DNA of 64,000 nt from Gemmatimonadota bacterium (GTDB taxonomy: Bacteria > Gemmatimonadota > Gemmatimonadetes > Gemmatimonadales > Gemmatimonadaceae). The notes under the pieces are model-generated. The model was not told the DNA's origin. It worked only from the letters and a program-made list of their open reading frames with translations, and ran no database searches. The DNA lies in NCBI GenBank assembly GCA_028287235.1, contig JAQBQB010000005.1:1-64000 (forward strand). The letters are read 5' to 3'. The position numbers and the translations under genes are program-made. This document shows positions 7,296 to 17,076 of this stretch, piece after piece (positions within the stretch are counted from its first letter, which is position 1; each line of letters opens with the position of its first letter).

Positions 7296-7679
7296 ATGGC
7301 TGCAAAGAAGGGTGCAAAGAAGGCCGCCAAGAAAGGCGGCGCCAAGAAGAGCGGCGGCGCGAAGAAAGCCGCCAAGGGCGGCGCGAAGAAGAGCGCAGCC
7401 AAGAAGCCTGCGAAGAAGGCGGCCAAGCGCACGCCGAACGCAGCGTTCATGAAGCCGATGCAGCCGTCCGCGGCGCTGGGCGCGGTCGTCGGGAACAATC
7501 CGATGCCGCGTACGGAAGTCACCAAGAAGCTTTGGGGCTACATCAAGAAGAACAATCTGCAGGATCCGAAAGAGCGTCGCATGATCGTGGCCGACGACAA
7601 GATGAAGCCGGTGTTCGGCGGCAAGGGCCGTGTCTCGATGTTCGAGATGACCAAGCTCGTCAACAAGCACCTCAAGTAG
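7296..7679 (+). CDS. Histone H1-like, Lys/Ala-rich SWIB-domain protein
   Basis: 127 residues. Residues 1-45 are almost only Lys, Ala and Gly with repeated AAKK/GAKK units, like eukaryotic H1 tails and chlamydial Hct proteins; such tails bind DNA non-specifically. Residues 50-127 form a SWIB/MDM2 domain (LGAVVGNNPMPRTEVTKKLW, IKKNNLQDPKERR, MKPVFGGKGRVSMFEMTKLV). Likely nucleoid-associated. A purine-rich ribosome site (CGGGAGAGAGA) precedes the ATG. The dyad array at 7096-7246 occupies the upstream region and a GC-rich terminator follows. Confidence 0.92.
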   Translation: MAAKKGAKKAAKKGGAKKSGGAKKAAKGGAKKSAAKKPAKKAAKRTPNAAFMKPMQPSAALGAVVGNNPMPRTEVTKKLWGYIKKNNLQDPKERRMIVADDKMKPVFGGKGRVSMFEMTKLVNKHLK

Positions 7680-7778: not shown

Positions 7779-7852
7779 TGTCATCCTGAGCGAAGCGAAG
7801 GATCTTCCTACCTGGACGACGATCCTTCGGCGCTGCGCGCCTCAGGATGACA
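7779..7852. repeat. REP-like inverted repeat
   Basis: TGTCATCCTGAGCGAAGC at 7779 is matched by CTCAGGATGACA at 7841-7852, with GGATC and GATCC inner arms. It is the same element as at 16947-17076. It ends 12 nt before the signal peptidase start. Confidence 0.8.
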
Positions 7853-7864
7853 TTACCGATCCCC

Positions 7865-8704
7865 ATGGCCAAACGCACTCAGAAATCCCCGCCCGCAAAA
7901 TCCGGCAACGTCGTCGCGCAAGCGCGCACCGGCGGCGCCAAGAAGAAACCCTCGCAGCCCAAAGGCCGCTGGCTGTGGGAGAACTTCAAGTCGCTCGCCG
8001 GCGCGGTACTCATCTACCTGTTCGTGAAGACGCTGTTCGTCGAGGCGTTTCGCATTCCGTCGGGGAGCATGATTCCCACGCTGCTCGTCGGCGACTGGCT
8101 GTTCGTGAACAAGCTCGCCTATGGGCCCACGATTCCGTTCACCAACACGCACCTGCCGGGCTACACGAGCCCAAAGCACCAGGACGTGGTCGTGTTCGAG
8201 TCGCCGTACCAGGCGGACAACGCGCCGGACTTCACGCCCACGCTCGTGAAGCGGCTCATCGGTATGCCGGGCGACACGCTCTACATGCGCGACGGCGTAC
8301 TCTATCTGAACGGCCTCGCCCAGCATCAGGGGTTCGCGGCGAACAACCCGAAACGCGATCCGAACTCCATCGACCCCGACTTCGATTGGCAGCACAAGAT
8401 CGAGATCAAGGGCTCGCGCTTCGGCGCGCCCCCGGCGCAGCCCACGCACGACAACTGGGGACCGCTGCTCATCCCCGCCGATCACTATTTCATGATGGGC
8501 GACAACCGGTACTGCTCGAAAGACAGCCGCTACTGGGGCGTGGTGCCCAAGGCGAACGTTCGCGGAACGCCGCTCTTCGTGTACTACTCCTACGTTCCCG
8601 GTCCGTCGCCGAGCGACGACGAATGCAGCGGGCAGATCAGCGACCGGCCGTTGGCGCCGCTCACCGACATTCGCTGGACGAGGATCGGCCACCCGATCCG
8701 GTAA
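7865..8704 (+). CDS. lepB: Signal peptidase I
   Basis: Cleaves signal peptides of Sec and Tat substrates at the outer face of the inner membrane. 279 residues. A basic cytoplasmic tail of about 40 residues precedes one membrane helix (LAGAVLIYLFVKTLFV). Catalytic Ser68 is in FRIPSGSMIPTL and Lys129 in VKRLIGMPGD; the late MGDNRYCSKDSRYWG box is present. I use ATG 7865 because the earlier in-frame ATG at 7847 lies inside the REP-like repeat. The next gene encodes a Tat signal-peptide protein. Confidence 0.95.
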   Translation: MAKRTQKSPPAKSGNVVAQARTGGAKKKPSQPKGRWLWENFKSLAGAVLIYLFVKTLFVEAFRIPSGSMIPTLLVGDWLFVNKLAYGPTIPFTNTHLPGYTSPKHQDVVVFESPYQADNAPDFTPTLVKRLIGMPGDTLYMRDGVLYLNGLAQHQGFAANNPKRDPNSIDPDFDWQHKIEIKGSRFGAPPAQPTHDNWGPLLIPADHYFMMGDNRYCSKDSRYWGVVPKANVRGTPLFVYYSYVPGPSPSDDECSGQISDRPLAPLTDIRWTRIGHPIR

Positions 8705-8769: not shown

Positions 8770-9363
8770 ATGCCCACCCTCACTCGCCGTACGTTCCTCG
8801 CTTCGCTGGCCGCTTCCGTCCCATTGGCGGTCATCGTGCGACAGGCTCACGCTGCCGCCGTCGTTCATCTTCAGGCCGACCCCGCCACGCTCGACGCGCT
8901 CGGCGACGCGGTGCTCCCGTCTTCACTCGGCAGAGCCGGCATCGCCGCCGCGGTGGCGGCCTTTCGCGATTGGGGCGCCGGCTATCGCGAACGTGCCGAG
9001 CTCAATCACGGCTACGGAACGTCGCGGCTGCGGTTCACAGGAGCCACGCCCATGACGCGCTGGGCCACGCAGCTCGACGCCCTCGACGCCGATGCGAAGA
9101 CCAAACACCAGCGCCGCTTCCGCGAGCTGAGCGTCGCGCAGCGGCAGGCCGTCGTGCGGTCAGCGCTGCAGGGCGAGCGGCTCGACCGCATCCCGGGCAT
9201 AGCCGACGCGAATCACGTCGCGGTCGCGCTCCTCGCGCACTTCTACGACAGCTCGGCGGCGAACGACCTGTGCTATGAGGCGAAGATCGGAAAGGCGACC
9301 TGCCGCCCGCTGTCCGAGTCGCGGCGCAAGCCGCTGCCCGTGGTCCGGGTGAGCGAACGATGA
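8770..9363 (+). CDS. Tat-exported small subunit of a GMC dehydrogenase (gluconate 2-dehydrogenase subunit 3 family)
   Basis: 197 residues. The N terminus LTRRTFLASLAASVPLAVIV is a twin-arginine signal peptide. The rest resembles the gamma subunit of FAD-dependent glucose/gluconate dehydrogenases, which carries the Tat signal and escorts the FAD subunit across the membrane (IPGIADANHVAVALLAHFYDS and LCYEAKIGKATCRPL are the recognisable parts). Its stop overlaps the start of the FAD subunit gene by 4 bp, supporting a complex. No cytochrome c subunit follows. Confidence 0.82.
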   Translation: MPTLTRRTFLASLAASVPLAVIVRQAHAAAVVHLQADPATLDALGDAVLPSSLGRAGIAAAVAAFRDWGAGYRERAELNHGYGTSRLRFTGATPMTRWATQLDALDADAKTKHQRRFRELSVAQRQAVVRSALQGERLDRIPGIADANHVAVALLAHFYDSSAANDLCYEAKIGKATCRPLSESRRKPLPVVRVSER

Positions 9364-10943
9364 GGCGCGCCGCGATCGAGAGCGACGTCTGCATCGTCGG
9401 CTCCGGCATCTCCGCGGCGATGGTGGCCGACCGGTTGGCGCGCACGACGCAGGCGAAGATCGTCGTGATCGAAGTGGGGGACGAGACCGTTCCACTCCCG
9501 CAACGCGCCGCGGCGCGCGAGCGGTTCCTGCGCTACGGCGAAAATCCCTGGGGGCGCGATCATCTCGAGGGCTATGAAGTCGAGGGGCCGCTCCAATCGC
9601 GATCGATGCAGGTGGGCGGTCTGGCGATGCACTGGGGCGGCGTCACGCCGCGCTTCTCGCCGGAGGATTTTCGCCAGCACAGCATGTTCGGCGTCGGCAC
9701 CGACTGGCCGATCTCGTACGACGAGCTCGATCCGTTCTATCAGGAGGCGGAAGAGATCATGGGTGTGGCGGGCGAGCAGGGACCTCCCGATCTCGACCCG
9801 CGCAAGAAGCCGTTCCCCATGCCGCCGCTGCCGCTGACGTACAATCTCGAGCTGCTGAAGGGGTGGGCGGCGAAGGCGGGGATCGCGACGTGGAGTCAGC
9901 CGTCGGCGAAGAATTCGGTGGCGTACAGAGGGCGCGCGCAGTGTTGCCGCAACGACACGTGCACGCCCGTGTGCCCGGTGGGCGCGAAGTATTCGCCCGA
10001 CTTCACGTGGACGCCGCTGCGAAAGGCGAACAAGATCCGGCTCGTGCCGCGCACGCTCGTGCGCCGTCTCGTGCTCGATCCGAAGACGAAGCGAATCTCA
10101 CATGCCGTGGCGGTGGACCGCGACCATCCGAACCAGCCGGTGGAGATCCACGCCAAGCTGTTCGTCATCGCTGCCGGCTACACCTGGAGCCCGCACCTCC
10201 TCCTGTTGTCCGACGTCGCCAACAGCTCGGGATTGGTCGGCAAATATCTCACGGGGCACCGCAACGTGCAGGGCTACGTCGACCTGCCCATGCGTCTCTA
10301 TCCCGGCATCAACGAGCAGCACAGCCTGGTGACGAAGCAGTTCATGCGGCGCGCGCCGGGCACGCCGTACATTCGCCACGATCTCCGCATCTGGGAGTCG
10401 TCGGCCGGCAAAGCGCCGCGGCTCGTCGACGACACGGGCGCGCTCATGTTGGGCGACGCGATCCTCGACGACTGGCGCGCGCGCACGAAGACGGGTTCGG
10501 CGCGTGTGCGCTCCTACTACGACGTGATTCCCGACCGGTCGAGCGAGCTGACGCTCGACACCACGCGCAAGAACGAGTGGGGCGATCCGCTTCCCAAGCT
10601 CGCCTTCCGCGACGCGCCGGAGTCGGTGGAGATGCGCGCGCAGACCGAGGACTCGATCAAGACCCTGTTCGGCGAGATGGCTCGCGCCGGCAATGGGAAG
10701 CTGCTGCGCACGTCGGTCGACAACTTTCAGGATCACCCCGCCGGCGGCTGCCGCATGGGAAGCGACGGCGCCACGAGCGTGGTCGATTCGTGGGGACGGA
10801 CGCACGATCATGAAAACATGTTCGTCGTCGGCGCGCCGACCAGCGTGAGCGGAAGCTGCGCCAATGCGACGTTGACGTTCTGCGCGCTCGCGTTGCGCGC
10901 GGCACACGAGATGGAGCGCGGGCTGGCGCGGAGGACATCATGA
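9360..10943 (+). CDS. GMC-family FAD dehydrogenase, catalytic subunit, with a predicted 3Fe-4S site
   Basis: 527 residues, no signal peptide, consistent with Tat hitch-hiking on the preceding subunit. The FAD-binding Rossmann motif is CIVGSGISAAMVAD near the N terminus. The C-terminal GMC region has His459 in FQDHPAGGCRMG and a conserved Asn in SGSCANATLT. Cys195, Cys196 and Cys201 (CC-x4-C) have the spacing of the 3Fe-4S ligands of bacterial FAD-glucose dehydrogenase alpha subunits. Substrate is probably a sugar or sugar acid. The usual electron acceptor, a multihaem cytochrome c beta subunit, is missing from this cluster. Confidence 0.88.
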   Translation: MRRAAIESDVCIVGSGISAAMVADRLARTTQAKIVVIEVGDETVPLPQRAAARERFLRYGENPWGRDHLEGYEVEGPLQSRSMQVGGLAMHWGGVTPRFSPEDFRQHSMFGVGTDWPISYDELDPFYQEAEEIMGVAGEQGPPDLDPRKKPFPMPPLPLTYNLELLKGWAAKAGIATWSQPSAKNSVAYRGRAQCCRNDTCTPVCPVGAKYSPDFTWTPLRKANKIRLVPRTLVRRLVLDPKTKRISHAVAVDRDHPNQPVEIHAKLFVIAAGYTWSPHLLLLSDVANSSGLVGKYLTGHRNVQGYVDLPMRLYPGINEQHSLVTKQFMRRAPGTPYIRHDLRIWESSAGKAPRLVDDTGALMLGDAILDDWRARTKTGSARVRSYYDVIPDRSSELTLDTTRKNEWGDPLPKLAFRDAPESVEMRAQTEDSIKTLFGEMARAGNGKLLRTSVDNFQDHPAGGCRMGSDGATSVVDSWGRTHDHENMFVVGAPTSVSGSCANATLTFCALALRAAHEMERGLARRTS

Positions 10944-12868
10944 CACGGGCACGTCGATACGTCGCGGTGGCGTCGCTCGCACTCGCTGCGTCGCGTGCTG
11001 CCCACGCCCAGGCCGGCAACGACTGGCCCGCCTACGCCGGCGACCTCGGCGCCACGAAGTACTCCACGCTCGCCGACGTCAATCGCACGAACGTGTCGAC
11101 GCTGGCGCGCGCCTGGGAATGGGCGACGGGCGAAACGCCGAATGCGGCGAATCGAACGCGCCCGGGAAACTTTCAGGCGACGCCGCTCATGATCGGCGAC
11201 ACGCTGTATCTGAGCACGTCGTACAATCGCGTGGTGGCGCTCGACGCGAACAGCGGCCGCGAGCTGTGGGCGTACGATCCCAAGGCGTACGTCATCGGCC
11301 AACCGCCCAACGGCACCGGCTTCGTGCACCGTGGCGTCGCGACGTGGAGCGACGGCACGCAGCGGCGCATCTTCATGAACAGCCGCTGGAATCTCATCGC
11401 GCTCGACGCGGCGACCGGTCGGCCCATTCGTTCGTTCGGCGACACCGGCGTCGTGGACCTGACGCGCGCGCTGGGGCGCAACGGCAAAGCGGTGAACAAG
11501 CTGCATTACACGCAGACGTCGCCGCCCGTGGTGTGGAGCAATCTCGTGATCGTGGGCAACGGCGTCGCCGACAAGCTCGTGTACCCGAACGATCCCCCGG
11601 GCGACGTGCAGGCGTTCGACGTGAAGACGGGACGGCGCGTGTGGAGCTACAGTCCGGTGCCGCTCGACAAGCGGGACGACGGCGCGAGCACCTGGGCCAA
11701 CGACTCATGGCGCACGATGGGCCACACGAACGTGTGGGCGCCGTTCAGCGTCGACGAGCGGCGCGGGCTGGTCTATCTCCCGGTGAGCACGCCGAGCAAC
11801 GACTGGTATGGCGGCGCGCGGAAGGGAAACGACCTGTATGCGGAATCGATCGTCTGTCTCGACGCGAAGAGCGGCAAGCGGGTGTGGTACTTCCAGACGG
11901 TGCACCACGGCTTGTGGGACTACGACATCCCCGCGGCGCCGGTGCTGGCCACGGTGCGTGTCGACGGCCGGCCGCGCGACATCGTCGCCGTGCCGACGAA
12001 GATGGGGTTTCTGTTCGTCTTCGACCGGCAGAACGGCGCGCCGATCTGGCCGATCGAAGAGCGCTCGGTGCCGGCGAGTGACGTGCCCGGTGAGGCCGCG
12101 GCGCAGTCGCAGCCGGTGCCGACGAGGCCCAAGCCGTTCGCCAAGCAGGGATTCGGCTTCAACGACCTGATCGACTTCACGCCCGACATTCGCGCGCGCG
12201 CGCTCGACGCGATCAAGGAGTACCGCGTCGGGCCGCTCTTCACGCCTCCGTCGACGGACGGCACGATCGTGATGCCGGGCGCCATCGGCGGCGCGGGCTG
12301 GGGCGGCGGCGCGCTCGATCCCGCGTCGGGCACGATCTACATCAAGACCACGAACCAGCCGGCGTTGTACCGGATCGTCCAGCCGTCGCGCAGCGACACG
12401 CTTGACGCCGACTACACCGTCGATCTCGCCGGCCAGAGTCTTCGCGTCACGATCCCTTCCACCGACAGCACCCAGCGCGCGACGTCGCTGCCGATCAACA
12501 AGCCGCCGTACGGCACGCTGGTGGCGATCGACCTGAACACCGGCGACGAGCGGTGGACCGTGACGCTGGGCGACACGCCGGGAATTCGTAACAATCCGTT
12601 ACTAAAAGATCTCAAATTGCCGCCCGTCGGCGTGGCCGGAGCGCCCGGACCGATCGTCACCGCCGGAGGGCTGATCTTCGTGACCGGCGGCGGATCGACG
12701 CTCTACGCGATCGACACCCGGAACGGCGCGGTCCTCTGGTCCTCCGACCTCGGCCAGTCGGCGTACGCGGTGCCGATGACCTACCGAACGAAGGCGGGCA
12801 AGCAGTTCGTCGTGATCGCGACCGGGGCGGCGAACGGAGCGAAGTTGGTCGCGTTTGCGTTGCCGTAG
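10940..12868 (+). CDS. PQQ-dependent dehydrogenase (quinoprotein, glucose/alcohol type)
   Basis: 642 residues. A cleavable signal peptide ends near AAHAQA, then WPAYAGDLGATKYSTL opens an eight-bladed quinoprotein propeller. Conserved blade motifs include FQATPLMIGDTLYLST, DLYAESIVCLDAKSGKRVWYFQ, HHGLWDYDIPAAPVL and IGGAGWGGGALDPASGTIY. There is no C-terminal haem c domain and no N-terminal membrane helices, so it is a soluble periplasmic form. Its ATG overlaps the GMC gene by 4 bp. Two different sugar/alcohol-oxidising enzymes are thus expressed from one transcript. Confidence 0.92.
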   Translation: MTRARRYVAVASLALAASRAAHAQAGNDWPAYAGDLGATKYSTLADVNRTNVSTLARAWEWATGETPNAANRTRPGNFQATPLMIGDTLYLSTSYNRVVALDANSGRELWAYDPKAYVIGQPPNGTGFVHRGVATWSDGTQRRIFMNSRWNLIALDAATGRPIRSFGDTGVVDLTRALGRNGKAVNKLHYTQTSPPVVWSNLVIVGNGVADKLVYPNDPPGDVQAFDVKTGRRVWSYSPVPLDKRDDGASTWANDSWRTMGHTNVWAPFSVDERRGLVYLPVSTPSNDWYGGARKGNDLYAESIVCLDAKSGKRVWYFQTVHHGLWDYDIPAAPVLATVRVDGRPRDIVAVPTKMGFLFVFDRQNGAPIWPIEERSVPASDVPGEAAAQSQPVPTRPKPFAKQGFGFNDLIDFTPDIRARALDAIKEYRVGPLFTPPSTDGTIVMPGAIGGAGWGGGALDPASGTIYIKTTNQPALYRIVQPSRSDTLDADYTVDLAGQSLRVTIPSTDSTQRATSLPINKPPYGTLVAIDLNTGDERWTVTLGDTPGIRNNPLLKDLKLPPVGVAGAPGPIVTAGGLIFVTGGGSTLYAIDTRNGAVLWSSDLGQSAYAVPMTYRTKAGKQFVVIATGAANGAKLVAFALP

Positions 12869-12903
12869 CTCGCTGCGCTCGCGTTTCACCGCTTCGCTGT
12901 AAC

Positions 12904-14043
12904 TTGGTGGCGTCGTTACAGCAGCCGCCGGTCCAACAGCAAGCCCAGCGAGCAGTGTCCCTCATCTTCCCGTTCGATCCCGATATTCGCCGCGCGTCGA
13001 CAGTCCCGGCGAGACTCTACACCGACCCCGTCTACCTCGAGCTCGAGCGCGAGCGGATCTTCGCGCACACCTGGCAGCTCGTCGGCCGCACGGAGCAGGT
13101 CTCGGAGAGCGGGATGTTCTTCACCGCGCAGGTGGGCAACGACTCGATCGTCGTGCTGCGCGACCGCGACACGTTGCGCTCGTTCTACAACGTCTGCCTG
13201 CATCGCGCCGGTCCCGTGGCGTACGGGTGCGGCAAGCGGCAGACGCTGCAATGCAAGTATCACGGGTGGACGTACAACCTGAACGGCGAGCTGCTGCGCG
13301 CGCCGGAGATGGAAGGCGTGGAGCGCTTCACGCCCGAGGACATGCGTCTGCGCCCAGTGGCGGTCGCGAGCTGGGGGCCGTTGATCTTCGTGAATCTCGA
13401 CGGCAAGGCTCCGCCGCTCGAGGAGATGCTGGGCACCATCCCGGGCCGCGTCGCGCACTTCGGGTGCGAGTCCATGCGCTACGTCATGCGCAAGGAGTAC
13501 GAGCTCGCGTGCAACTGGAAAGTCTACGTCGACAACTATCTCGAGGGGTACCACATTCCCGTGGTGCATCCGTCGTTGCACAAGGAGATCGACTACGACA
13601 GCTATCGCGTCGAGCCGCACCGCTATTCGTCGATCCAGCACGCGCCGCTTCGTCCCATGCCGGCCGGCGGTGGAGCGGAGCGGAAGTACGATCCCGCGAA
13701 GTCCGATGCCGGCGAGGCAGTTTATGGATGGATCTTTCCGAACATCATGTTGAACATCTACATGGGGCAGATGCAGACGAACGTCATTCTCCCCGTGTCG
13801 CACGACCGCACCGTCGTCGCCTTCGAGTGGTTCGCGGCCAATCCCCCCGCCGACCCGGCCACCGACCCCGATTGGTCGCGGCTCGTGGCCTTCAGCGACG
13901 AGATCCAGGACGAGGACATCGAGATCTGCGAGACGGTGCAACGGAATCTCCGCTCACGCGTCTATGACCGAGGGCGATACTCGGCGAAGCGGGAGAACGG
14001 GGTACACCATTTTCACTCGCTACTACACGAGTTTCTGACGTGA
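12904..14043 (+). CDS. Rieske non-haem-iron oxygenase, alpha subunit
   Basis: 379 residues. The Rieske 2Fe-2S ligands are Cys98, His100, Cys117 and His120 (CLHRAG and CKYHGW). The mononuclear iron site is His217 and His222 in NYLEGYHIPVVHPSL, with Asp336 or Asp338 in IQDEDIE as the carboxylate. The overall pattern is close to choline/carnitine monooxygenase and related aromatic-ring hydroxylases; substrate not determinable. No reductase or ferredoxin gene is adjacent. The start is uncertain: TTG 12904, GTG 12907 and GTG 12955 are possible, and none has a strong ribosome site. The stop overlaps the sensor-kinase start (TGATG). Confidence 0.9.
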   Translation: MVASLQQPPVQQQAQRAVSLIFPFDPDIRRASTVPARLYTDPVYLELERERIFAHTWQLVGRTEQVSESGMFFTAQVGNDSIVVLRDRDTLRSFYNVCLHRAGPVAYGCGKRQTLQCKYHGWTYNLNGELLRAPEMEGVERFTPEDMRLRPVAVASWGPLIFVNLDGKAPPLEEMLGTIPGRVAHFGCESMRYVMRKEYELACNWKVYVDNYLEGYHIPVVHPSLHKEIDYDSYRVEPHRYSSIQHAPLRPMPAGGGAERKYDPAKSDAGEAVYGWIFPNIMLNIYMGQMQTNVILPVSHDRTVVAFEWFAANPPADPATDPDWSRLVAFSDEIQDEDIEICETVQRNLRSRVYDRGRYSAKRENGVHHFHSLLHEFLT

Positions 14044-16349
14044 TGCAACGGCTGCGCCCATACGCTTCGCACATCACGCGCTGGATCGTCGTGGCGCAGT
14101 TGGCGTGCGTCATCGTCGGTACCGGGCTGCTGCTCGAGCTCTGGGAGGACGGGCGGAGCCGCCTCATCGTCGAGCTGCTGACGATCGCCGGGTTCGCCGC
14201 GCTGGTGACGATCATCGGGTGGACGGTGCTGGTGCAGGAGCGCCGCGTCGCGCTGGAGCTCGCGCGGTCGATGGAGCAGGAGCGCGAGCACACGGCGACC
14301 CTCGAGCTGGCCGTCGTCAGCCGCACGGGCGAGCTCGAGGACGCCCAACGCGTGCTGCAGCGGATGTGGTGGCTGGGCCAACAGATCACGCTCGAGCTCA
14401 ATCCGCAGCGCGTCCTCGAGCGGTTCCTCGAGGCGGTCACCGACATCGCGCAGGCCCAGGGCGGCATCGTGGGCCTCATCGGCGACGACGGAAAGATTCG
14501 TATCGTCGTCAGCACGGGCGCCGCGGCCGGTCTGGCCGGCATGGCGATTCCCATCAGCGGCTCGGCCATGGGTCGCGTGATTCGCACCGGCACCGCATGG
14601 ACGGCGGTCGATCTCAGCGCCCACATCGACGAAGTCGACGAGCAGCTCTACGCGCGGATCAAGGACAGCATCAAGGGCGCCGCCATCGTTCCCATCGCGC
14701 GCCGCGGGGAGCGCATCGGCGCGGTGGCCATCGGCACCGCCGGCGAGCGCGTGTTCACGTCCGCGGACCTCGAGCGCATCGAGGCCATGGGCGATCTGCT
14801 GTCCGTCTCGCTCGAGAACGCGGAGCTCGTGGAAACGCTGCGGCAGGCCGAATGGCGCTTTCGCACGCTCTTCCGCGCCGCGCCCGACGCCGTGTTTACC
14901 GTGTTGCAGAGCGGCCGCATTCGCGAAGCGAACGACGCCGTGCGCGACGTCACCGGCGCCGATCCGCTGCAGGTGGTCGGTCGTCCTGTGGTAGACCTCG
15001 TCGTCGAGGCGGACCGTGAGAAGCTGCGCGCGGCGCTCGACGCGACCTTCGCGGGGACGCCGGCGCGCATCGAAGTCGCGTTCCAGCACGATGGCCGCGG
15101 CACGCCGGTGCGCCGTGTGGTCGCACTGGCCATGAGCCGGCTGCCCGAAGCAGATCCGCCGAGCGTGCTGCTGGTGGGCCGCGACATGACGAGCGAGCGC
15201 GAGATGCGCGTGCGCCTCATGGAGTCCGACCGCCTCGCCGCCGTGGGCGAGCTCGTGGCCGGCGTGGCGCACGAGGTGAACAATCCGCTGAGCAGCATCA
15301 GCGCCTTCGCCCAGCTCCTGCTGCGCGACGGCGGGCTCACGGCGGCGCAGCGCGATTCAATCGAAGTCATCAAGTCGGAGACGCTGCGCGCGAGCCAGGT
15401 GGTGAAAGACCTGCTCGCGTTCGCGCGCCGCAGCGAGCCACAGCGCGAGCCGCTCGACCTGAACGGCGTCGTGTCGCGCACGCTGCGATTGCGCGGCTAT
15501 CAGCTCACGTCGAACAAGATCAACGTCGAGACAGACCTCTCGGCCGAGCTGCCATCGGTGGTGGGCGACGCGCGCCAGCTCCAGCAGGTATGCCTCAACC
15601 TCGTCACCAACGCCATCCAGGCCATGACGACGCTCGGCGGCGGCACGCTGTTCGTGTCGACGCGCCCCGACGGACCGCACGTCGTGCTCGACATGCGCGA
15701 CACCGGCCCGGGAATTCCCGACGTGGCGAAGGTCCACATCTTCGAGCCGTTCTTCACGACGAAGGACGAGGGTGAAGGAACGGGTCTCGGGCTGAGCGTG
15801 AGCTACGGCATCATCACGGCGCACGGCGGCACGATCGAAGTCGCGCAGTCGTCGGCGGCGGGCACCACGCTCCGCGTCACGCTGCCGGCGGCGTCGGAGA
15901 TGCCGAGCAGCGAAGCGGCGCGCGACTCGGGCGGACTGGTCCTGCGGTCGCCGCTGTCGGGCATTCGCCTCCTCTTCATCGACGACGAGGCGACGCTACG
16001 CATCGGCGTCCAGGCGTTCGGCGAGCTGCGCGGCTTCACGGTGCTCACCGCCGCCGACGGCATCGAAGGGCTCGAGGTGGTGCGCACCGGATCGGTTGAC
16101 GCGATCGTCTGCGATCTGCGCATGCCGGGCATGGACGGTCCGGCGTTTCACGAACGATTGCGCCGCGAGCGGCCCGGACTTGCCGCCCGAACCGTGTTCA
16201 TCACAGGCGACGTCGTGACCACCAGCGGACGGATGGCGCCGATCAGACAACCCGTATTGACGAAGCCGTTCGCCTTCGAGAAGCTCGAGGAAACCCTCGT
16301 GGCCTTGATGCGCGGGGCCCCGGTAGCCAGCTCCGCGGGTTGGCCGTGA
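14043..16349 (+). CDS. Hybrid sensor histidine kinase (2 TM, GAF, PAS, HisKA, HATPase, receiver)
   Basis: 768 residues. Two N-terminal membrane helices (about 12-32 and 45-65) with almost no periplasmic loop, a coiled segment, a GAF domain (110-265), a PAS domain (275-390), HisKA with His410 in GVAHEVNNPLSS, HATPase with N, G1 (DTGPGIP) and G2 (EGTGLGLSVS) boxes, and a C-terminal receiver with Asp691 in IVCDLRMPGMDG. With so little extracytoplasmic sequence, sensing is probably by GAF/PAS in the cytoplasm. ATG 14043 shares one base with the oxygenase stop; GTG 14040 is an alternative. It may control the oxidation cluster (inference from position). Confidence 0.92.
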   Translation: MQRLRPYASHITRWIVVAQLACVIVGTGLLLELWEDGRSRLIVELLTIAGFAALVTIIGWTVLVQERRVALELARSMEQEREHTATLELAVVSRTGELEDAQRVLQRMWWLGQQITLELNPQRVLERFLEAVTDIAQAQGGIVGLIGDDGKIRIVVSTGAAAGLAGMAIPISGSAMGRVIRTGTAWTAVDLSAHIDEVDEQLYARIKDSIKGAAIVPIARRGERIGAVAIGTAGERVFTSADLERIEAMGDLLSVSLENAELVETLRQAEWRFRTLFRAAPDAVFTVLQSGRIREANDAVRDVTGADPLQVVGRPVVDLVVEADREKLRAALDATFAGTPARIEVAFQHDGRGTPVRRVVALAMSRLPEADPPSVLLVGRDMTSEREMRVRLMESDRLAAVGELVAGVAHEVNNPLSSISAFAQLLLRDGGLTAAQRDSIEVIKSETLRASQVVKDLLAFARRSEPQREPLDLNGVVSRTLRLRGYQLTSNKINVETDLSAELPSVVGDARQLQQVCLNLVTNAIQAMTTLGGGTLFVSTRPDGPHVVLDMRDTGPGIPDVAKVHIFEPFFTTKDEGEGTGLGLSVSYGIITAHGGTIEVAQSSAAGTTLRVTLPAASEMPSSEAARDSGGLVLRSPLSGIRLLFIDDEATLRIGVQAFGELRGFTVLTAADGIEGLEVVRTGSVDAIVCDLRMPGMDGPAFHERLRRERPGLAARTVFITGDVVTTSGRMAPIRQPVLTKPFAFEKLEETLVALMRGAPVASSAGWP

Positions 16350-16434: not shown

Positions 16435-16944
16435 ATGCCGACCTTCTTTCCTAGACAGACGATCGAGTGGCGGCTCGAAGAGCCGAAAGCCTTTCGACGA
16501 TTCTCGTATTCCCTCGTCGAGATGGCGGTGGTGACGGGCGTGCTCGTGCGCGTCTATCGCCTGCTGATCCTCACTCACGGCTCGAACAACTGGCTGTATC
16601 TGGGCGGTACGTTCACGCTCGGATTCATCTTTCTGTTGGGGATGCTGACGGCGCATCTCGCGAACTATCCGCTGCACCAGTATCTGTGGCGCGCGCCGAT
16701 GTTCGCGATCGTGGAGGTGGCGGCGGAGATGGCCACGAGCGCGCTGCTCATCGCGCTCGGGCGGGAGCCGAACGGCACCGTGCGCGCGCATTGGGACGAC
16801 TGGATCGGCATGGGCCTCAACGCCCTGCTCGTGCGCGGCCTGGCGATCGTGCTCTGGACGTTGGTACTCGGCGTCGTCGTCTACCTCGTGCGCCGCACCA
16901 TCGTGCACGAGGATGAAGATTCAGGCGAGATGCCGGCGGCGTAA
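16435..16944 (+). CDS. Small integral membrane protein of unknown function
   Basis: 169 residues with about four membrane segments: near 25-46, 52-74, 84-104 and 122-152. A charged, probably cytoplasmic N terminus (RQTIEWRLEEPKAFRRF) and an acidic tail (VHEDEDSGEMPAA) flank them. I recognise no family signature. It lies 85 bp after the kinase gene on the same strand. The 3' side is the REP-like cluster. Confidence 0.75.
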   Translation: MPTFFPRQTIEWRLEEPKAFRRFSYSLVEMAVVTGVLVRVYRLLILTHGSNNWLYLGGTFTLGFIFLLGMLTAHLANYPLHQYLWRAPMFAIVEVAAEMATSALLIALGREPNGTVRAHWDDWIGMGLNALLVRGLAIVLWTLVLGVVVYLVRRTIVHEDEDSGEMPAA

Positions 16945-16946
16945 TT

Positions 16947-17076
16947 TGTCATCCTGAGCAAGTACTTGTCATCCTGAGCGAAGCACCTGTCATCCTGAGC
17001 GAAGCGAAGGATCGCTTTGGGGGGCGCGGCGATCCTTCGCTTCGCTCAGGATGACAATGCTTCGCTCAGGATGACA
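16947..17076. repeat. REP-like cluster: three direct and two inverted copies
   Basis: TGTCATCCTGAGC appears at 16947-16959, 16967-16979 and 16988-17000. Inverted GCTCAGGATGACA appears at 17044-17056 and 17064-17076. The inner arms GCGAAGGATCGC and GCGATCCTTCGC let the block fold into a long hairpin. It lies between two convergent genes and could end transcription from both sides. Confidence 0.9.

Follow-up and report, generated by a model that had tools for sequence, protein, structure and literature searches.

A predicted iron-sulfur FAD dehydrogenase without a neighbouring multihaem cytochrome, in a composite gene neighbourhood of a Gemmatimonadota genome

The fructose dehydrogenase of Gluconobacter japonicus (PDB 7w2j, 8jej and 9jqa) and the flavin adenine dinucleotide (FAD)-dependent glucose dehydrogenase of Burkholderia cepacia (6a2u and 8grj) are the closest described systems to a dehydrogenase of the GMC family encoded in a five-gene cluster at positions 8770–16349 of the window, by which we mean the whole 64-kb stretch of Gemmatimonadota contig JAQBQB010000005.1 analyzed here. 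In the Burkholderia enzyme, the 3Fe-4S cluster is bound by C212, C218 and C222, and C213 is disulfide-bonded to Cys152 of the small subunit (PMC6719666, from the portion of the paper available). Glucose and fructose sensors use such enzymes because the cytochrome subunit wires the flavin to the electrode. The window protein shares with both enzymes the catalytic fold (Z 40–42, 29% identity), and the pair of genes to which it belongs shares their trio of ligand cysteines, their His/Asn pair and an upstream gene for a small partner of the twin-arginine translocation (Tat) type. It differs in having no adjoining multihaem cytochrome gene and in its diverged small subunit, and it falls in a separate clade on a long stem (in a quick tree with long branches flagged).

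The cluster is a real, well-kept variant of this known kind of dehydrogenase in a composite neighbourhood. Our preferred reading, to which we assign a probability of roughly 0.7, divides the five genes between two modules: a Tat-exported iron-sulfur (Fe-S) FAD dehydrogenase with a quinoprotein (8770–12868), the electrons passing to a diffusible cytochrome, and an oxygenase with a kinase (12955–16349). Gene adjacency in the window should not be taken to mean one pathway; the missing cytochrome and a cysteine that moves within the clade are the features that merit specialist attention.

The list of open reading frames (ORFs) holds five on the + strand in this region (8770–9363, 9360–10943, 10940–12868, 12904–14043 and 14040–16349), and Pfam places them in five families: Gluconate_2-dh3; GMC (N- and C-terminal domains); pyrroloquinoline quinone (PQQ) propeller; Rieske plus ring-hydroxylase alpha; and a hybrid kinase with GAF, PAS, HisKA, HATPase and receiver domains. 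The original prediction, made from the letters and ORFs of the window, was therefore right to describe five overlapping or abutting genes. Overlaps of 4 bp join the small-subunit and GMC genes and the GMC and quinoprotein genes, and the oxygenase and kinase genes overlap too. The gap between quinoprotein and oxygenase is 35 bp from the TTG at 12904 chosen in that prediction and 86 bp from a GTG at 12955. The GTG appears the more likely start because orthologs begin there with M-x2-VFPFDP or a similar sequence, and the 86-bp gap then divides the five into two sets of overlapping genes. The first contains the following features:

8770–9363, + strand: small (gamma, ‘hitchhiker’) subunit, Gluconate_2-dh3 (PF13618, 30.6 bits against a cut-off of 23.4), with Tat-like signal MPTLTRRTFLAS and Cys168 and Cys178
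9360–10943, + strand: GMC FAD dehydrogenase catalytic subunit (Pfam, PDB sequence matches and fold model)
9942–9974, + strand: Fe-S loop, codons 195–205, with C195, C201 and C205 as predicted 3Fe-4S ligands, C196 as predicted inter-subunit disulfide cysteine, and N198
10940–12868, + strand: soluble PQQ-propeller dehydrogenase (quinoprotein), of the membrane-glucose-dehydrogenase type but lacking the membrane domain (PF01011, 648 bits)

Residues 5–518 of the GMC protein matched fructose and glucose dehydrogenases in a sequence search of the PDB (E about 1e-61), and its closest named relatives, at 60–70% identity, are from Gemmatimonadota genomes. A fold model built from 57 sequences (mean predicted local distance difference test score, pLDDT, 91.4) had as structural neighbours 9jqa (Z 42.2) and 6a2u (Z 41.7), at 29% identity, with pyranose oxidase next (Z 34.4); the fold was also confident in a second model, made for the question of Cys198 discussed below. 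Sequence and modelled fold agree in making the protein a genuine relative of fructose dehydrogenase and of Burkholderia FAD-glucose dehydrogenase.

To place it within the phylum, we searched 395 Gemmatimonadota genomes. A GMC ortholog, set apart from other GMC proteins by an identity gap, was found in 114 of them; this and the other counts from the phylum searches are lower bounds, since three candidates per genome were scored in the ortholog search and up to six in the search for PqqC. From 89 of the 114 genomes, 92 ortholog loci were fetched with their flanks; three (L130, L132 and L149) were missed by the simple gene caller, and L149 was recovered by tblastn. Among the 93 orthologs (the window protein and these 92), His459 is conserved in all, and Asn502 and His91 in 92 each. 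His459/Asn502 are likely the catalytic pair of the window protein, with His91 as a likely FAD contact.

Cysteines occur in the GMC protein at positions 11, 195, 196, 201, 205, 464, 500 and 508. In the alignment, C195, C201 and C205 are the equivalents of Burkholderia C212, C218 and C222, and C196 that of C213. None of the 57 aligned relatives departs from these three ligand cysteines (motif C-x5-C-x3-C), which rules out a chance cysteine motif, and by analogy with the solved enzymes we infer that they bind a 3Fe-4S cluster. The original prediction had read CC-x4-C at residues 195–201 as the ligands. It had found a real ligand site but missed C205, and CC-x4-C as the ligand triad is ruled out by the published ligands (in the part of PMC6719666 available) together with the alignment of C196 with the disulfide cysteine. 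Loss of the trio in homologues, which had been raised as a possible finding against it, was not seen in the aligned relatives.

The small subunit bears out the escort role proposed for it in so far as it belongs to the Gluconate_2-dh3 family and carries a Tat-like RRTFL signal; the RR motif is present in 87 of the 93 orthologs, and an equivalent of Cys178 in all 93. In a simple test, 91 of the 92 ortholog loci have its gene immediately 5′ of GMC and in the same orientation. At the remaining one (L095), the test fails where the GMC open frame overruns the small subunit, and gene calling gives a 4-bp overlap. A sequence search found no PDB relative of the small subunit (best E 0.43). It aligns poorly with classic gamma subunits, and Cys178 can therefore be no more than a candidate counterpart of Burkholderia Cys152. 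A lipobox-like cysteine follows the Tat motif in 34 of 93 small subunits, which suggests that some members of the clade are anchored as lipoproteins; the window protein has no such cysteine.

The absence of a multihaem cytochrome beside GMC, also claimed at the outset, held up. No open frame of at least 80 residues with at least two CxxCH motifs occurs in the whole window, and 88 of the 92 ortholog loci lack such a neighbour. Under the same test and with the same query, an ORF with at least two CxxCH motifs lay within 3 kb of GMC at 4/92 Gemmatimonadota ortholog loci versus 33/35 proteobacterial relatives. At least 2 kb of sequence was present on both sides at 80 of the 92 loci. Two of the four positive ortholog loci have the ORF on the opposite strand, one has it 2.1 kb away, and one (G083, in genus g9) has it 4 bp downstream. 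Of the 35 proteobacterial controls, the two without a multihaem ORF were L012 and L044, the latter a distant match at 103 bits; the truncated match L043 was scored as positive.

In the mechanism we propose, the first module would comprise a soluble quinoprotein dehydrogenase and a periplasmic FAD dehydrogenase with two subunits, belonging to the fructose/glucose-dehydrogenase family. The GMC protein would cross the Tat pore in the company of the small subunit, as the family of the latter suggests. An alcohol or a sugar-type compound would then give up hydride to the FAD via His459/Asn502, and electrons would pass to the surface 3Fe-4S cluster at C195, C201 and C205, as the invariant residues and solved relatives imply. 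From the cluster they would most likely go to a separately encoded, diffusible c-type cytochrome, because the clade encodes no trihaem subunit beside the enzyme; the dihaem cytochrome of genus g9 is the best hint of such an acceptor. The quinoprotein would probably work only with imported PQQ. The second module, a Rieske oxygenase with a hybrid kinase, lies on the same strand but probably does not belong to the same pathway. Pfam annotation of GMC neighbours elsewhere, at 20 representative loci, showed no agreement on a substrate (amidohydrolases, M28 and S9 peptidases, sulfate-assimilation genes, kinases and others).

The quinoprotein has its propeller and most of its PQQ-site positions in common with the membrane-bound PQQ glucose dehydrogenases represented by E. 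coli Gcd and TIGR03074. We labelled its residues by the PQQ-site roles in E. coli Gcd, including the catalytic Asp/Lys positions; in the alignment it keeps H262, R266, D354, W404, D466, K493 and G689 (E. coli numbering). Unlike those enzymes it has no membrane domain, scores below the TIGR03074 cut-off (443.1 bits against 832.65; positions 145–783 of the profile matched, 1–144, the membrane domain, unmatched) and comes from a genome without PqqC. It contains no CxxCH haem motif. It qualifies as a PQQ-dependent dehydrogenase in the broad sense, with PQQ binding predicted.

The proposed link between GMC and quinoprotein held in part: 20 of the 92 loci carry a quinoprotein gene no further than four called genes from GMC (15 on the same strand, 5 on the opposite strand). 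The five opposite-strand quinoproteins are long ORFs of 1047–1113 amino acids. One of them (L170:3644-6856, on the strand opposite to small subunit–GMC) has an N-terminal amidohydrolase domain by Pfam, and those of L099, L171, L172 and L175 resemble this fusion, as judged by length and similarity only.

PqqC was found neither in the window’s own genome nor in the genomes of the 20 GMC–quinoprotein loci; it exceeded its cut-off in at least 44 of the 395 genomes. PqqE scored far below its cut-off in the own genome, as it did in all 14 control genomes. Quinoproteins of the window type occur in 243/395 genomes, 27 of which also have PqqC. A GMC ortholog and PqqC are shared by 1 genome versus 12.7 expected, an expectation that ignores relatedness and that we did not use as a test. 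In the portions of the published work available, the PQQ importer PqqU is described as widespread in Gemmatimonadetes (PMC12124388) and a quinoprotein glucose dehydrogenase gene (gcd) as present in over half of Gemmatimonadota genomes (PMC9426454; a word search of that portion found no mention of PQQ or GMC). Together with the absence of PqqC, these reports suggest that PQQ is probably scavenged from outside, an explanation already in print at the phylum level.

Independent inheritance of the oxygenase and kinase is indicated by their occurrence elsewhere. The features concerned are:

12955–14043, + strand: Rieske oxygenase alpha subunit, a distant CntA/GbcA relative (Pfam, ortholog starts and synteny)
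14040–16349, + strand: hybrid histidine kinase with GAF, PAS, HisKA, HATPase and receiver domains (Pfam; 3′ of the oxygenase in 8/40 other loci)
7847–8704, + strand: signal peptidase I (lepB), anchoring the oxygenase–kinase synteny on its upstream side (profile matches; 13/40 oxygenase loci)
7296–7679, + strand: SWIB-domain protein of the same synteny (Pfam; 13/40 oxygenase loci)
16435–16944, + strand: 169-amino-acid protein whose best Pfam match is below cut-off, downstream synteny anchor (12/40 oxygenase loci)

Oxygenase orthologs in 40 other genomes (64–85% identity) were accompanied in the fetched stretches by lepB in 13, by the SWIB gene in 13 and by the 169-amino-acid gene in 12. The kinase (52–80% identity) lies 3′ of the oxygenase in 8 of the 40, all among the 13 stretches with lepB. 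Neither GMC nor the small subunit occurs in any of the 40. The lepB gene aligns 5–165 bp upstream of the oxygenase in 8/40 stretches; the lepB–oxygenase order is common, not universal. The slot between these two genes is occupied by other genes in some genomes, by a quinoprotein in G177 and by small subunit–GMC–quinoprotein in the window and in G144. These three loci belong to one genus, as do G312 and G375. G177 lacks a GMC ortholog and carries the quinoprotein together with the oxygenase and the kinase; G144 keeps the five-gene order of the window; G312 and G375 have small subunit–GMC–quinoprotein after lepB, with no oxygenase in the genome at E≤1e-60 and with the kinase absent from the fetched stretch. 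The five genes make up a composite unit, whose dehydrogenase block and oxygenase–kinase pair were most likely inherited independently.

The oxygenase has the Rieske pattern C-x-H...C-x2-H, found in 41/41 other orthologs, and a ring-hydroxylase catalytic domain. Like CntA and GbcA, it has Glu214 and His217/His222 at the CntA bridge and iron-ligand places, but it scored 152.6 bits against the GbcA profile, for which the cut-off is 670. Some Group V quaternary-amine Rieske enzymes carry C-x-x-C by the mononuclear iron (PMC10952381, from the part available). Unlike those, the window oxygenase has no C-x-x-C and reads NYLEGYHIPVVH (EGYHI) by the active site. Its assignment as a quaternary-amine enzyme is weakened by the GbcA score and the missing C-x-x-C. 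A search of the own genome, scored 100% complete, found no match to PF00970 (FNR-type FAD domain reductase) and six matches to Fer2. Pfam detects no DNA-binding domain in the kinase.

Several points weigh against the two-module reading. The cluster assignment was carried over from relatives at 29% identity, and the quinoprotein has changes in its PQQ site at E. coli T424 (S), N607 (K) and H775 (A), and also at N355 and G776. Co-transcription of the same-strand genes of the window is still conceivable, and lepB falls outside the fetched stretch in 27/40 oxygenase loci, some of them on short contigs. Counts of adjacent genes are not phylogenetically independent. A multihaem neighbour is present at 1/6 of the other GMC loci of the phylum and at 1/2 of the genome’s own paralogs, and its absence is not special to the ortholog clade within Gemmatimonadota. 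An adjacent cytochrome in relatives, which the original prediction had counted as evidence against itself, was found in one genus and not elsewhere: in g9, the cytochrome adjoining GMC in G083 is a SoxA/TsdA-like dihaem protein, and a gene 97% identical to it lies about 3.5 kb from GMC in G063. Finally, an unlinked dihaem cytochrome of the own genome (G000:C7:141635-142573) shows 34% identity to residues 26–233 of a classic beta subunit. With these two dihaem cytochromes, one adjoining and one unlinked, ‘no partner’ may mean ‘partner elsewhere’.

Among the alternatives, the most probable concerns the Fe-S loop and is compatible with the two-module explanation. In the 93 orthologs the motif takes the forms CC-x4-C-x3-CP (24), C-x2-C-x2-C-x3-CP (33) and C-x2-C-x2-C-x2-CP (36); the fourth cysteine is at 196 in 24 and at 198 in 69, and none has both or neither. 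The window protein is of the Cys196 form, with Asn198. On a GMC tree (motif columns left out, quick method, long branches flagged), three changes are required to account for the three forms, and the x3 sequences group as one clade beside the CC rows. It is possible, if tentative, that the sister clades with Cys198 hold a 4Fe-4S cluster (C-x2-C-x2-C-x2/3-C-P) and the window protein keeps 3Fe-4S: the 69 orthologs with Cys198 retain the three ligands, and the spacing of the x3 form, C-x2-C-x2-C-x3-CP, is that of the 4Fe-4S ferredoxin motif. However, Cys196 is always lost when Cys198 appears, Cys178 of the small subunit persists in 93/93, and the tree holds only two or three switches; a moved disulfide fits as well or better. 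The consistent loss of Cys196 and the constancy of Cys178 lead us to favour a disulfide cysteine displaced by two residues over a fourth iron ligand. Two points count against this displacement: Cys178 does not align firmly with Burkholderia Cys152, and independent switches are few. In six loci (L102, L112, L122, L130, L132 and L142) the Fe-S loop reads CDTCH, an accidental CxxCH that could lead motif scans to miscall haem proteins.

A broader evolutionary claim, which we think rather unlikely as a whole, is that a phylum-wide clade dropped the cytochrome subunit to become a two-subunit Fe-S donor to diffusible cytochromes, with its cluster switching between 3Fe-4S and 4Fe-4S types at least twice. 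If true, the switch would provide a natural series on how cluster type tunes flavin-to-cytochrome transfer. A clade with an Fe-S exit, no neighbouring cytochrome and two arrangements of the fourth cysteine is in any case a sequence set with which to test the need for the cytochrome and the disulfide. Among the matches listed in our search of open-licence papers, judged by title and the start of the abstract, none was on this clade (its 4Fe-4S or cytochrome-free form, the quinoproteins of the phylum or Gemmatimonadota Rieske enzymes).

It is unlikely that the enzyme has a fixed, specific cytochrome subunit encoded elsewhere in the genome. The 34% identity of the unlinked C7 dihaem cytochrome to the classic beta subunit and the SoxA/TsdA-like dihaem protein beside GMC in g9 both speak for such a partner, but the C7 protein is not similar to the g9 cytochrome and has matches at E≤1e-30 in only 29/395 genomes, with none in G144, where all five genes are present. 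This distribution rules out C7 as a conserved partner. We consider it very unlikely that the enzyme has turned into an oxidase or a direct donor to membrane quinone, with a mainly structural Fe-S cluster. Speaking for it are the pyranose and C-glycoside oxidases that come next among its structural neighbours, and the lipobox-like cysteine of 34/93 small subunits, which could tether the complex to the membrane; against this, the ligand cysteines are strictly kept, the fold is nearest to cytochrome-linked dehydrogenases and the window small subunit has no lipobox. Least probable of all is the single functional pathway put forward in the original prediction, in which two periplasmic oxidations and an oxygenase would act on one substrate family under control of the kinase: the genes share one strand, with 4-bp overlaps within each set, and G144 repeats their order, but it is ruled out as the best reading because the oxygenase (at some loci accompanied by the kinase and at others not, and without GMC or small subunit at the 40 loci) and the dehydrogenase block (without oxygenase in G312 and G375) each occur alone, even within the genus, and the kinase without a Pfam DNA-binding domain and the oxygenase without the C-x-x-C of some Group V quaternary-amine enzymes (PMC10952381, in the part available) also count against it.

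A promoter scan found no promoter-like site, and terminator-like sites numbered 2 versus a mean of 3.2 in shuffled sequence; no Rfam family matched the window at gathering scores. The 17-mer TGTCATCCTGAGCGAAG occurs in five copies in the window (one mismatch allowed), with no match in 100 shuffles. One copy lies between the SWIB gene and lepB (7779–7795), and four, two direct and two inverted, lie just 3′ of the gene at 16435 (16967–17004 and 17040–17076).

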